From Thermodesulfobacteriota bacterium (GTDB taxonomy: Bacteria; Desulfobacterota; Deferrisomatia; Deferrisomatales; JACRMM01), in assembly GCA_040756475.1 (NCBI GenBank), contig JBFLZB010000022.1, positions 1 to 37,274 on the forward strand: DNA of 37,274 bases, written 5' to 3'. This document shows, piece by piece, positions 8,903-31,475 of this stretch (position 1 is its first letter; every line of letters starts with the position of its first letter). Below the pieces are notes generated by a model. It was not told the origin of the DNA and did no database searches. It worked only from the letters and a program-made list of their open reading frames with translations. Made by a program: the position numbers and the translations under genes.

Positions 8903-9694
8903 ATGGACACCCCGGCCCAGCTCCAGGTGGACGGCATCCACCTGAGCTTCGGCGGCGTCAACGCCCTCATGGACGTCGGCTTCCAGGTAAAGCAGGGAGA
9001 GATCTTCTCGATCATCGGCCCCAACGGGGCCGGCAAGACGAGCATGCTCAACTGCATCAGCGGGCGCTACACTCCCCAGCGGGGGCGTATTGCCTTCGAA
9101 AACACCGAGATCACCGGACGACCCCCGGCCTTGCGGTCTCAGCTCGGCATTTCGCGCACGTTCCAGAACATCGCCCTCTTCAAGGGGATGACCGTGCTCG
9201 ACAACATGCTCATCGGCCGCCATATCCACCTCAAGAGCGGCTTCCTCAAGGGGGGTATCTACCTGGGCCCCTGCCAGAGGGAGGAGATCGAGCACCGCAA
9301 GTTCGTCGAGGACATCATCGACTTCCTTGAGATCGAGCACATCCGCAAGAAGGTGGTGGGCACCCTGGCCTACGGCCTCCAGAAACGGGTTGAGCTCGCG
9401 CGCGCCCTGTCCCTGGACCCCAAGCTCGTGCTCCTGGACGAGCCCATGGCGGGGATGAACCTGGAAGAGACCGAGGACATGGTGCGCTACGTTCTCGACA
9501 TCAACAACGAGTGGGGGGTCACGGTGGTGCTCGTCGAGCACGACATGGGCGTCGTGATGGACATCTCCGATCGGGTCGTGGTGCTCGACTTCGGCCAGAA
9601 GATCGGCGAGGGCACGCCCGAGGAGGTCCAGAAGAACCCCGCCGTCATTCGGGCCTACCTGGGAGACGAGGAGTCGGTGTTCTTGGGGCGGTAG
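8903..9694 (+). CDS. livG: Branched-chain amino acid-type ABC transporter ATPase, LivG family
   Basis: One of the two ATP-hydrolysing subunits of a Liv/HAAT-type importer. 263 residues: Walker A GPNGAGKT (39-46), Q-loop near 88, LivG-specific insertion around 110-130, signature LAYGLQKR (155-162), Walker B LVLLDE (175-180) and the switch His in VEHDMGVV. The start is taken at ATG 8903 because the aaggag Shine-Dalgarno is seven bases before it; the ATG at 8897 would be only one base from that site. First gene of a long operon that also encodes two permeases, a binding protein, LivF and two acyl-CoA ligases. This suggests the imported compound is an organic acid rather than an amino acid. Confidence 0.94.
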   Translation: MDTPAQLQVDGIHLSFGGVNALMDVGFQVKQGEIFSIIGPNGAGKTSMLNCISGRYTPQRGRIAFENTEITGRPPALRSQLGISRTFQNIALFKGMTVLDNMLIGRHIHLKSGFLKGGIYLGPCQREEIEHRKFVEDIIDFLEIEHIRKKVVGTLAYGLQKRVELARALSLDPKLVLLDEPMAGMNLEETEDMVRYVLDINNEWGVTVVLVEHDMGVVMDISDRVVVLDFGQKIGEGTPEEVQKNPAVIRAYLGDEESVFLGR

Positions 9695-9790
9695 TTGCAC
9701 GTTGCACGTTGCGCGTTGCACGTTGCACGTTGGTCGCAGCCGAGCCTCCGAACCCAGGTTTCCAACGAGCAACGGGCAACGAGCAACAAG
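9694..9790. repeat. Heptamer array with inverted partner
   Basis: Five tandem units of GTTGCNC (9694-9728) plus a partial one are followed, after about 30 bases, by four units of CAACNNG (9763-9790), the reverse-complement form. Arm 9708-9733 pairs with 9762-9787 at 23 of 26 positions, with all mismatches at the same place in each 7-bp unit. The RNA could form a long hairpin between livG and the synthetase gene. The first unit begins on the last base of the livG stop codon. Confidence 0.8.
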
Positions 9791-9813
9791 CAGATTCCAC
9801 TCAGGAGACCACA

Positions 9814-11730
9814 ATGGTTCATCTTCCCCACGACACGCTTCCCAAGCTCCTGCGCCACAACGCCATGAAGTATGGGGACGGCAAGGTGGCCCTGCGGGAG
9901 AAGGAGTTCGGGATCTGGCAGCCCTTCACCTGGAAGGAGTACTACGAGCACGTCAAGTACTTCTGCCTCGGGCTCGTCTCGATGGGGCTCGAGAAGGGCG
10001 ACACCATCTCCATCATCGGCGACAACCGCCCCGAGTGGGTCTACGCCGAGCTCGCGGCCCAGTGCGCGGGGGCCGTGGGGATCGGGATCTACCAGGATTC
10101 CATCCTGAAGGAGGTCTCCTACATCATCAACCACGCGGCCTCGAAGTTCATCGTGGCCGAGGACCAGGAACAGGTGGACAAGGTCCTCGACATGGGCGAC
10201 GAGCTCACCACCGTGCGCCATGTCGTCTACACCGACAGCCGGGGAATGAGCAAGTACGACGACGACCGGCTGATCTTCTTCCCGGAAGTCGAGGAGAAGG
10301 GCCGCCAGTACGAGAAGGATCACCCGGCCCTCTTCGACCAACTCGTGGACGCAACCCGGACCGACGAGCCGGCCCAGATCTGCACCACGTCGGGAACCAC
10401 GGGCAACCCCAAGCTCGCCGTGCTCTCCCACCGCAACATGATCTCCATGGCGGCGAACCTGGGAGAGGTCGACCCCAAGCGCGAGACCGACGAGTTCGTG
10501 AGCTTTCTGCCCCTGCCCTGGATCGGGGAACAGATGATGGGGGTGGCGAGCGCGCTCCTCTTCGGCTTCACGGTGAATTTCCCCGAATCTCCCGAGACCG
10601 CCACGGACAACATTCGGGAAATTGGTCCCCACGTGCTCTTCAGTCCGCCACGGGTGTGGGAGAACCTGGCCGCCACGGTGCAGGTCAAGATCATGGACGC
10701 CTCGTGGCTCAAGCAGTTCCTCTACAACCGGTTCCTGCCCGTCGGCTACGAGTGGGCGGATCTCAAATTCCAGAAGAAGCAGCCCTCCCTCGCCCAGAAG
10801 CTTCGCTACGCCCTGGGCTACCTCCTGGTCTTCCGAGCCCTCAAGGACCGGCTGGGTTTTACCTTCGTGCGCTCGGCCTCCACCGGGGGCGCCGCCCTGG
10901 GGCCCGACACCTTCCGGTTCTTCCACGCCCTCGGGGTGAACCTGAAGCAGATCTACGGCCAGACGGAGATCTCGGGCATTTCGTGCATTCATCGGGACGG
11001 GGACATCAACTTCGACTCCGTGGGGAAACCCATCCCCGAGACCGAGGTGCGCATCGACAACCCAGATCCCCAGGGGGTGGGAGAAGTGGTCTCCCGCAGT
11101 CCCGCCCTCTTTCTCGGTTACTACAAGAACGAGGAGGCCACCCGCGAGACGATCCTCAACGGCTGGCTTCATTCGGGCGACGCTGGGTACTTCACCCCGG
11201 ACGGCCACCTCATCATCATCGACCGGATGAAGGACATCATGACGATGACGAGCGGGGAGCGCTTCAGCCCCCAGTTCATCGAGAACAAACTAAAGTTCAG
11301 CCCCTACATCAAGGAAGCGGTCTGTATCGGACACCAGAGAGACTTCGTGATCTCCATGATCTGCATCGACTTCGGCATCGTCGGAAAGTGGGCCGAAGAC
11401 CGCCGGATCAACTACACCACCTACACAGACCTGGCCGCGAAACCCGAAGTCTACGACTTCCTGGAAAAGGAGGTACGCAAGGTCAACGCAACGCTGGTGG
11501 AGTCGCAGAAGGTCAAGAAGTTCATCCTGCTCTACAAGGAGCTCGACGCCGACGACGACGAGCTCACGCGTACTCGGAAGGTCCGTCGAGGCTTCATCGA
11601 CGAGAAGTACAAGGACATCATCGAGGGCATCTACGCCGGCCAGGAGCAGATCCACATCGACACCCTGATCAAGTACCAGGACGGCAAGACCTCGCAGCTC
11701 AAGACGACGCTGCCGGTGCGGACACTCTAG
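9814..11730 (+). CDS. AMP-forming acyl-CoA synthetase, long-chain (FadD-like) type
   Basis: Activates a carboxylic acid to its CoA thioester with ATP, giving AMP and PPi. The 638 residues match long-chain-type synthetases (~600-650). Motifs are complete: P-loop TTSGTTGNPK (about 191-200), IYGQTEISG, SGDAGYF with the ribose-binding Asp, DRMKDIMTMTSGE hinge, and a C-terminal lysine region with the TRTRKVRR motif typical of this subgroup. ATG 9814 has a caggaga Shine-Dalgarno. The gene is wedged between livG and livH of a transporter operon. Inference: the ligase traps the solute brought in by that transporter as its CoA ester. The acid may be aliphatic or aromatic; the family name does not decide chain length. 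Confidence 0.92.
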   Translation: MVHLPHDTLPKLLRHNAMKYGDGKVALREKEFGIWQPFTWKEYYEHVKYFCLGLVSMGLEKGDTISIIGDNRPEWVYAELAAQCAGAVGIGIYQDSILKEVSYIINHAASKFIVAEDQEQVDKVLDMGDELTTVRHVVYTDSRGMSKYDDDRLIFFPEVEEKGRQYEKDHPALFDQLVDATRTDEPAQICTTSGTTGNPKLAVLSHRNMISMAANLGEVDPKRETDEFVSFLPLPWIGEQMMGVASALLFGFTVNFPESPETATDNIREIGPHVLFSPPRVWENLAATVQVKIMDASWLKQFLYNRFLPVGYEWADLKFQKKQPSLAQKLRYALGYLLVFRALKDRLGFTFVRSASTGGAALGPDTFRFFHALGVNLKQIYGQTEISGISCIHRDGDINFDSVGKPIPETEVRIDNPDPQGVGEVVSRSPALFLGYYKNEEATRETILNGWLHSGDAGYFTPDGHLIIIDRMKDIMTMTSGERFSPQFIENKLKFSPYIKEAVCIGHQRDFVISMICIDFGIVGKWAEDRRINYTTYTDLAAKPEVYDFLEKEVRKVNATLVESQKVKKFILLYKELDADDDELTRTRKVRRGFIDEKYKDIIEGIYAGQEQIHIDTLIKYQDGKTSQLKTTLPVRTL

Positions 11731-11734
11731 TGCA

Positions 11735-11816
11735 GTGAGACGTGAAAAGTACCACCTAGAGACCTCTCGTTTCACGCTTCACGTCTAACGCTTCACGTTT
11801 CACGTCTCACGCTTCA
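11735..11816. repeat. CGNNTCA heptamer array with inverted partner
   Basis: Seven tandem 7-bp units of the type CGCTTCA/CGTTTCA/CGTCTCA/CGTCTAA run from 11768 to 11816. A reverse-complement pair of units stands at 11735-11747. GTGAGACGTGAAA there pairs exactly, 13 of 13, with 11798-11810. The array runs right up to the Shine-Dalgarno (cggagg) of livH, so folding could affect its translation. Confidence 0.8.
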
Positions 11817-11827
11817 CGGAGGCAACC

Positions 11828-12718
11828 ATGGAGTTCTACGTCCAGTTGATCGTGAGCGGGCTCGTGCTGGGGTCGATCTACGCCCTGGTGGCCCTGGGGT
11901 TCGCCATCATCTACAAGTCCACGAGCGTCGTGAACTTCGCCCAGGGCGAGTTCCTGATGCTCGGGGCGTACTTCTGCTTCTCCATGGTGGTGCAGTACCG
12001 CATCCCGTGGCTGTGGGCGTTCCTGCTGACCCTGGTCTTCTCCGTCGTTTTGGGCCTGTTGGTGGAGCGGCTGATCCTGCGGCCCATGATCGGCGAGCCG
12101 ATCATCTCGATCATCATGGTCACGATCGGGCTTTCCTCGGTCTTGAAGAGCGTCGTCACCACGATCTGGGGCACCCAGATCCAGATCTACGACCCGCCGC
12201 TCTTCCCGGACGCGCCCGTAAACATCGCGGGCATCCCCATCAGCCAGGTGTACCTGTGGAGCATGGGGCTCTCCCTGCTCCTCCTGGCGCTCTTCGGGCT
12301 CTTCTTCAAGTACTCGAAGGCCGGCGTCGCCATGCGGGCAACGGCCTTCTCGAACCAGGTGGCCCTGTCCATGGGGATCAGCGTGAAGAACATCTTCGCC
12401 CTCGCCTGGTGCATCGCGGTGGTGGTCTCCTCCATCGGCGGCATCCTGATCGGCAACATCAACGGCATCAACATCTCCCTGGGGCACTTCGGGCTCAAGG
12501 TGTTTCCGGCCGTCATCCTGGGCGGGCTCGACTCGATCCTCGGGGCGGCCCTGGGAGGTCTCATCATCGGCGTCTTGGAGAACCTGTCCGACGGGGTGCT
12601 AAAATCCCTCTTCGGTCTTCAGGGCATCAAAGAGGTCGCGCCCTTCGTCTTTCTGGTGATCATCCTCATGGTGAAGCCCTACGGGCTCTTCGGCACCAAA
12701 GAGATCGAACGGGTGTAG
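11828..12718 (+). CDS. livH: Branched-chain amino acid-type ABC permease, LivH family
   Basis: Inner-membrane permease subunit of the importer, 296 residues, standard length. About eight hydrophobic segments are visible. The N-terminal VSGLVLGSIYALVALGFAIIYKSTSVVNFAQGEFLMLGAY block is the family hallmark (key residues G-x-IYAL-A-G, NFAQG-F-M-GA). The cytoplasmic loop for contact with the ATPases has RATAFSNQVALSMGI (EAA-like), and GGLDSILGAALGG lies near the end. ATG 11828 follows an acggagg Shine-Dalgarno. It pairs with LivM to form the channel. Confidence 0.95.
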   Translation: MEFYVQLIVSGLVLGSIYALVALGFAIIYKSTSVVNFAQGEFLMLGAYFCFSMVVQYRIPWLWAFLLTLVFSVVLGLLVERLILRPMIGEPIISIIMVTIGLSSVLKSVVTTIWGTQIQIYDPPLFPDAPVNIAGIPISQVYLWSMGLSLLLLALFGLFFKYSKAGVAMRATAFSNQVALSMGISVKNIFALAWCIAVVVSSIGGILIGNINGINISLGHFGLKVFPAVILGGLDSILGAALGGLIIGVLENLSDGVLKSLFGLQGIKEVAPFVFLVIILMVKPYGLFGTKEIERV

Positions 12719-19987: not shown

Positions 19988-20028
19988 GGATCGTGTCCTC
20001 AGATCCAGCCGCAGGGCCGCCCCCCCCT

Positions 20029-20100
20029 CGGTATCGGTATCGGTATCGGTATCGGATTCGCGAAAACCAGCCGATTCGATTTCGATATCGACTTCGATCA
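20029..20100. repeat. Hexamer arrays, CGGTAT and CGATNT, facing each other
   Basis: Four CGGTAT units and one CGGATT (20029-20058) are followed, after 13 bases, by CGATT, CGATTT, CGATAT, CGACTT and CGATCA (20072-20100). The first array read as NATCGN and the second as CGATNN are reverse-complementary in register, so a partly paired hairpin is possible. They fill the gap between the chaN-like gene and the convergent Cys-rich gene. Confidence 0.75.
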
Positions 20101-24920: not shown

Positions 24921-27533
<2,613 letters not shown>

Positions 27534-31445: not shown

Positions 31446-31475
31446 CGAGGGCCGGGAGGAGACTCCCGGCCCTCG
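31446..31475. terminator. Strong hairpin, probable bidirectional terminator
   Basis: A 13-bp perfect stem (CGAGGGCCGGGAG/CTCCCGGCCCTCG) closes a GAGA (GNRA-type) tetraloop. ATAATTCCCC follows on the plus strand, without a proper U-run. It lies between the convergent ends of rpmB and the permease gene, so it can end both transcripts. Confidence 0.8.

Follow-up and report, generated by a model that had tools for sequence, protein, structure and literature searches.

The heptamer array upstream of livH

A tandem array of heptamers lies in the gap between acs and livH, within a run of liv-type genes, and raises the question of whether such arrays are made on the spot, each with a sequence of its own, or belong to a repeat that is scattered over the genome. 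The window that contains it, 37,274 nucleotides long, is one entire contig of a draft genome of 5.0 Mb in 369 contigs (Table 1). An earlier note on this DNA had counted seven CGNNTCA units before livH. The array is real, but only six units are exact (starting at 11768, 11775, 11789, 11796, 11803 and 11810), the unit at 11782 being a variant, CGTCTAA; together they span 11768-11816. The array does continue into the ribosome binding site of livH, and the inverted pair that the note had described, 11735-11747 with 11798-11810, does match at 13 of 13 positions. TRF calls the array at 11771-11818. The array has a period-7 score of 17, reached by 1 of 300 order-3 shuffles of the window, which itself contains three period-7 arrays scoring at least 15.5. 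Taken alone, the 13-base inverted pair is weak evidence; there are two perfect pairs of this length in the window versus 0.32 expected per shuffled window. The other one with less than 100 bp between its members lies at 31446 and 31463. The best four named homologues of the upstream AMP-binding enzyme, at 70-80% identity, come from metagenome bins labelled Thermodesulfobacteriota, bacterium, Proteobacteria and Holophagaceae.

A sister element precedes the AMP-binding gene, and its unit had been thought unrelated to that of livH. In register, however, the two units are CGTTTCA (livH array) and CGTTGCA (9694 array) and differ by one base, and the two arrays align at 68% over 31 bases. This near-identity may be accidental, since genome-wide the units fall into two core families (GTGA/TCAC and GTTG/CAAC), both of them dispersed; the period and the layout are, as proposed earlier, common to both families. 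The window also contains period-6 arrays at 20028-20055, 20072-20098 and 27452-27483, the first and third of which have an ATCG/CGAT core and represent another array family of this genome.

Table 1. Features of the livH element, its sister element and the neighbouring genes (window coordinates)
Feature	Position	Strand	Remark
Sister element, left arm, GTTG-core array	9694..9732	+	begins on final base of TAG stop of upstream ABC ATPase gene
Sister element, right arm, CAAC-core array	9763..9792	+	
Upstream gene, AMP-binding enzyme (PF00501)	9814..11730	+	
Left arm, two GTGA-core units	11735..11747	+	exact reverse complement of 11798-11810
Spacer between arms, without GATCGG- or CCCAT-type words	11748..11764	.	
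Right arm, TCAC-core heptamer array, reaching ribosome binding site	11765..11818	+	
GGAGG, probable ribosome binding site of livH	11818..11822	+	before ATG at 11828
Downstream gene livH, branched-chain amino acid permease (PF02653)	11828..12718	+	

Dispersal of the arrays and the link between core and period

The heptamers in front of livH are one copy of a scattered intergenic repeat type and not a one-off local invention. A 301-base query had 31 matches in its own genome, at least 29 of them in the array part elsewhere (a lower bound that leaves out the self match and one match inside livH, with 40 of 156 candidates scored and some of the 29 being two arms of one place). The pattern GTGANNN x4 matches the genome 72+76 times versus 2+5 for the same pattern read backwards, with overlapping matches inside one array counted apart, while GTTGNNN x3 matches 109+101 times, a count for which the backward control is the identical word and hence uninformative. 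The earlier note had set independent local arrays against a dispersed repeat and had named dispersal of this very unit as the observation favouring the latter; the livH unit is dispersed.

These arrays were surveyed in stretches picked by contig and not by content (20-kb stretches, in this genome and two relatives). From the source genome 837 kb was taken, with about 41 kb masked, and a home-made gene caller designates 83% as coding. Period-7 arrays are mostly intergenic in this sample (36 of 45 lie mainly outside gene calls). Among the 35 non-coding arrays that were found by period alone, regardless of sequence, 14 carry the GTTG core and 13 the GTGA core, three contain one of 12 control words, and five have neither core nor control word. 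Because 27 of the 35 thus share two cores, the arrays are not independent local inventions, and the claim that unit sequences are unrelated between loci does not hold for this genome.

Each main core is also tied to a period. Non-coding triplets of CAAC number 56 at period 7 and 22 at period 14, and those of GTGA 55 and 24, with none for either core at the other periods from 5 to 15; ATCG triplets fall at period 6 (82) and period 12 (27), with two at period 9. CCCAT has no single period (eight triplets at period 9, five at period 7). The sixth base of GTGA-family units is nearly always a purine (144 of 147). Counted without regard to core, non-coding arrays of this genome number 25 at period 6, 36 at period 7, 11 at period 9, 10 at period 12 and 2 at period 8, and are also frequent at multiples of 7; in coding sequence there are 16 at period 9, 13 at period 12 and only 9 at period 7.

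Polarity of paired arrays and the centre of mixed elements

Two neighbouring period-7 arrays were treated as a pair if fewer than 160 bp separated them and if one had at least three units and the other at least two; GTGA or GTTG arrays were labelled L, and TCAC or CAAC arrays R. The order is LR in 37 of 45 pairs (RR 4, LL 3, RL 1); this set includes pairs from 67 small loci fetched for matching arrays, and the systematic sample by itself gives LR 24, RR 3, LL 3 and RL 1. The systematic sample is not a random one: besides the window it takes in the initial 40 kb of the 20 longest contigs and the initial 20 kb of 20 more. Period-6 pairs are ordered in the same way (LR 20, RL 1, LL 1). The side of the gap on which an array lies was rejected as the basic rule: 43 of 48 arrays are on the expected side in tandem and convergent gaps but only 7 of 16 in divergent ones, and it is because of this failure that pair order was adopted instead. 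For period-6 arrays, 35 of 55 in all are on the expected side. Inverted and direct similarity between the paired arrays of this genome stand at 16:5.

Same-core arms are found in 16 of the 37 LR pairs versus 17.8 expected under independent assortment (11 of 24 versus 11.5 in the systematic sample only), and are therefore not in excess. A centre, scored as at least two GATCGG- or CCCAT-type words that were picked after viewing the spacers and without reference to period, is present in 14 of 21 mixed pairs and in none of the 16 same-core pairs (p=2e-5). The corresponding figures are 9 of 13 versus 0 of 11 in the systematic sample alone, and 14 of 15 versus 0 of 7 among spacers of at least 30 bp. 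Some of these tracts form arrays with a 9-bp period. GATCGG tracts lie beside arms in 10 of 12 cases (a two-unit arm within 70 bases), whereas CCCAT tracts do so in 4 of 13, the other 9 being without such an arm. In one element (locus L242, 1487-1677), a GTTG arm and a TCAC arm flank about eight copies of the 9-base unit CCTATGGGA. The livH element belongs with the same-core elements, its inner cores being 26 bases apart.

The exact 13-bp stem of the livH element could also be read as an RNA hairpin under selection in the leader of livH, with a role in attenuation, mRNA protection or translational control. The leader has a predicted fold of -32.3 kcal/mol (z -2.19; 5 of 200 shuffles are as stable or more so), which puts parts of GGAGG and of the start codon in a second small hairpin, and same-core arms pair strongly among the 26 loci on which RNA duplex pairing was scored (mean z -6.5 at five loci and -4.5 at seven). 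Mixed arms, however, do not pair (mean z +1.1 at 11 loci and +1.8 at three) yet keep the polarity, so that hairpin selection was discarded as the source of polarity. Nor was the hairpin found in the relatives examined. No intrinsic terminator (a G+C-rich stem followed by a T run) was detected in window positions 9600-12000; the terminator and promoter scan found nothing, and an Rfam scan of the window gave no match at gathering scores. With the lack of excess of same-core pairs added, we regard a selected hairpin as decidedly unlikely. With no surplus of same-core pairs and no pairing between mixed arms, the polarity rule can give rise to the livH inverted pair, and a selected hairpin is not needed.

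The arrays might instead be multi-site tracts for a putative DNA- or RNA-binding protein that recognises the core of every unit. Binding would hold the core and the spacing and let the other bases drift, in keeping with the fixed core, variable bases and fixed period that we observe. By itself, however, binding leaves the polarity and the centre unexplained, and it sits poorly with the wide range in unit number (2 to 12 per array in paired arrays); we consider this explanation quite improbable.

Local change and a proposed history of the livH element

Neighbouring units resemble each other beyond the core. Agreement at the variable bases is higher between adjacent units than with units of other arrays of the same core in the GTGA (0.59 versus 0.40), GTTG (0.49 versus 0.35) and ATCG (0.43 versus 0.34) families, with 0 of 1000 permutations reaching the observed value in each. 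Local gain and loss of units is thereby supported, the likeness being such as unit-by-unit slippage would give. The arms of one locus are only slightly more alike than those of different loci, 0.72 versus 0.63 in one family (223 of 2000 permutations reach this; seven loci) and 0.64 versus 0.59 in a second (324 of 2000; seven loci), and two of the seven GTTG loci in this test are probably one locus. As these differences are not significant, hairpin-templated copying was rejected, and with it the templated hairpin growth suggested earlier, for which an excess of same-core pairs is also missing.

These results bear on the view that the arrays arose separately at each locus, by slippage or by synthesis on a hairpin template, with 7 bp as a favoured replication step, a view also put forward in 2007 by Mrazek and others, according to passages of PMC4679880 and PMC4692102. 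The likeness of units within an array agrees with it, as does a survey of 80 loci from named records of several phyla, in which period 7 is the commonest (10 arrays, with varied units) and other periods up to 30 have 0-2 arrays each, except for 14 (4) and 21 (5). For the present genome it is largely refuted by the shared cores, and the tie of core to period, the fixed polarity of pairs and the lack of significant arm-to-arm matching also count against it; we judge it unlikely. The slippage part of the earlier proposal thus survives as change within arrays, but not as their independent invention, and the inference that arrays arise locally was mostly wrong. Among the named records, degenerate period-7 arrays with other units were seen at L033 2998-3107, L038 6844-6919, L048 5881-5991, L039 3942-3989 and L076 3912-3952, in records from Anaerolineae or Chloroflexi, Desulfobacteraceae and Meiothermus; by eye, those of L033 and L038 seem to have inverted partners.

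On balance, we favour the reading that the livH array is the right arm, accompanied by a short left arm, of a dispersed, non-coding, two-armed family that occupies intergenic gaps and has been altered by slippage. A seed element would have reached the acs-livH gap in this lineage, and slippage during replication would then have made the array longer and shorter by 7 bp at a time with the core kept. As both livH arms happen to be of the GTGA kind, the leader could form a 13-bp stem immediately before the ribosome binding site, and the element may be close to neutral for livH, possibly serving to insulate the two cistrons. Movement and slippage are proposed here rather than observed, since neither an enzyme that moves the elements nor an empty site with a target duplication was found, nor any strain of the same species.

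A RAYT transposase was considered as the mover and set aside. PF01797 has one match in the genome, a single gene that is not flanked by these arrays, and its 3.3-kb locus is without arrays of these cores, containing one weak C-rich period-7 stretch only. Of ten array-bearing genomes tested, nine have at least one PF01797 match, and the tenth (G040) has none in spite of GTGA arrays at 16+26 (backward control 7+12). The sole match of the source genome, at 892-2001 of its locus (L199), lies on the minus strand in a 369-codon frame, the end of which looks like a DnaA-type DNA-binding region.

Arrays in related genomes

The 38 relatives returned all belong to genera other than that of the source. 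The 4.5-4.9-kb loci around the homologue in seven genomes of the order (G001, G003, G004, G006, G008, G010 and G011) contain no period-7 array at a detector threshold of 14, and reading of the livH junction by eye in G001, G004, G008 and G010 confirmed that the livH array is absent. The livH copy therefore looks lineage-specific. In G001, of the same family, a different, G+C-rich inverted repeat lies in the acs-livH gap just after the AMP-binding gene (L111), and in G008 a period-8 array, seen by eye, lies just upstream of the AMP-binding gene, in what would be the counterpart of the gap holding the GTTG element here.

Arrays of other kinds do occur elsewhere in relatives. The same-order genome G004, a single contig, has 21 non-coding arrays at period 7, 20 at period 8 and none at period 6 in a sample of 400 kb, while the same-family genome G001 (387 kb sampled) has few (three at period 7, five at period 8). 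Triplets in G004 number 30 for GACC at period 7 and five for GCTAG at period 8, and ATCG occurs twice at period 7. Pairs in G004 and G006 are few and mixed in order: G004 has one RL for GTGA, an LL and an LR for GGTC, and two LL at period 8, and G006 has three LR and three RR; inverted and direct similarity of paired arrays stand at 2:3 in G004 and 2:2 in G006. In two G004 families, 20 of 22 and 10 of 10 single arrays lie on the gap side expected of them, as do 6 of 7 in the CTAGA family, whose strand label was chosen after seeing the pairing results. A 21-kb sample of G168, too short for use, gave no array triplets at period 7. Across the phylum, GTGANNN x4 is present in 68 of 198 genomes. 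The cores seem to differ between lineages, since in G183, G116 and G086 the backward-read pattern is the commoner one.

It is possible, though doubtful, that the regularities seen here amount to an intergenic-repeat grammar of this order, in which each core has a unit length of its own, polarity is inward and a centre belongs to mixed-arm elements only. If true, these rules would suggest a single active process, with machinery that could be found, behind the building or movement of two-ended array elements in many bacteria. Intergenic heptamer arrays are known from separate bacteria without a settled mechanism, and the core-period link, the polarity and the mixed-arm centre make the question of slippage or mobile repeat yield testable predictions.

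Comparison with known heptamer repeats

A literature search with six array sequences matched no paper. The kind of repeat is nevertheless already known, because precedents exist in Xanthomonas and Geobacter metallireducens; the closest systems are the intergenic heptamers of these two, of Nostoc and of Beggiatoaceae, which are compared here from portions of the cited papers. In Xanthomonas, GGGAATC / (GGGANTN)n heptamers occupy 186 and 183 sites in two species, about 90% of them intergenic, and form 70 and 75 convergent pairs (PMC4692102). Like the present arrays, they have a 7-base unit with a conserved core and variable positions, occur at many mostly intergenic loci, and pair convergently (LR 37 here). 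They differ in their core, which is G-rich and quadruplex-capable, unlike the livH array, and the portions of that paper drawn on report no second core and no distinct centre (PMC4692102). The livH array (11765-11817) contains no run of three G or C, the G-tracts looked for in a quadruplex; GGG does occur in some other arrays of this genome, for example in GTGACGG repeats.

In Geobacter metallireducens, four tandem heptamers, GGGACCG / GGACCGG, are described at 49 intergenic and intragenic places and are proposed to be regulatory (PMC2700814). The GACCG-core period-7 family of G004 resembles them, although, compared by description, the Geobacter metallireducens elements have one fixed unit in four copies (PMC2700814). 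The TAACTGA heptamers of marine Beggiatoaceae are likewise dispersed and intergenic, near start codons, but their unit is near-fixed and their 169 direct-repeat sets, against one indirect, are unlike the present arrays (PMC4679880). The same source describes mostly 7-nt indels between two close Cyanothece strains (PMC4679880), and the P6b heptamers of the Nostoc trnL intron, TDNGATT / NNTGAGT, also combine fixed and variable positions and build a stem from units, but at a single locus within an intron (PMC4476775). Borg tandem repeats, described in PMC9879509 as perfect units that arise independently, were dismissed as a different thing. The pneumococcal BOX element is alike in being modular and interspersed, with end modules around a variable tandem array; judging from the text alone, its middle is the tandem array, whereas here the ends are arrays (PMC3049150). 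Within the portions of the literature on heptamer repeats and BOX that were consulted, we found no report of the core-period link or the centre rule, an absence that is not proof. Relative to those portions, what is new in the present system is its cores, the coexistence of several periods each with cores of its own, and the centre rule.
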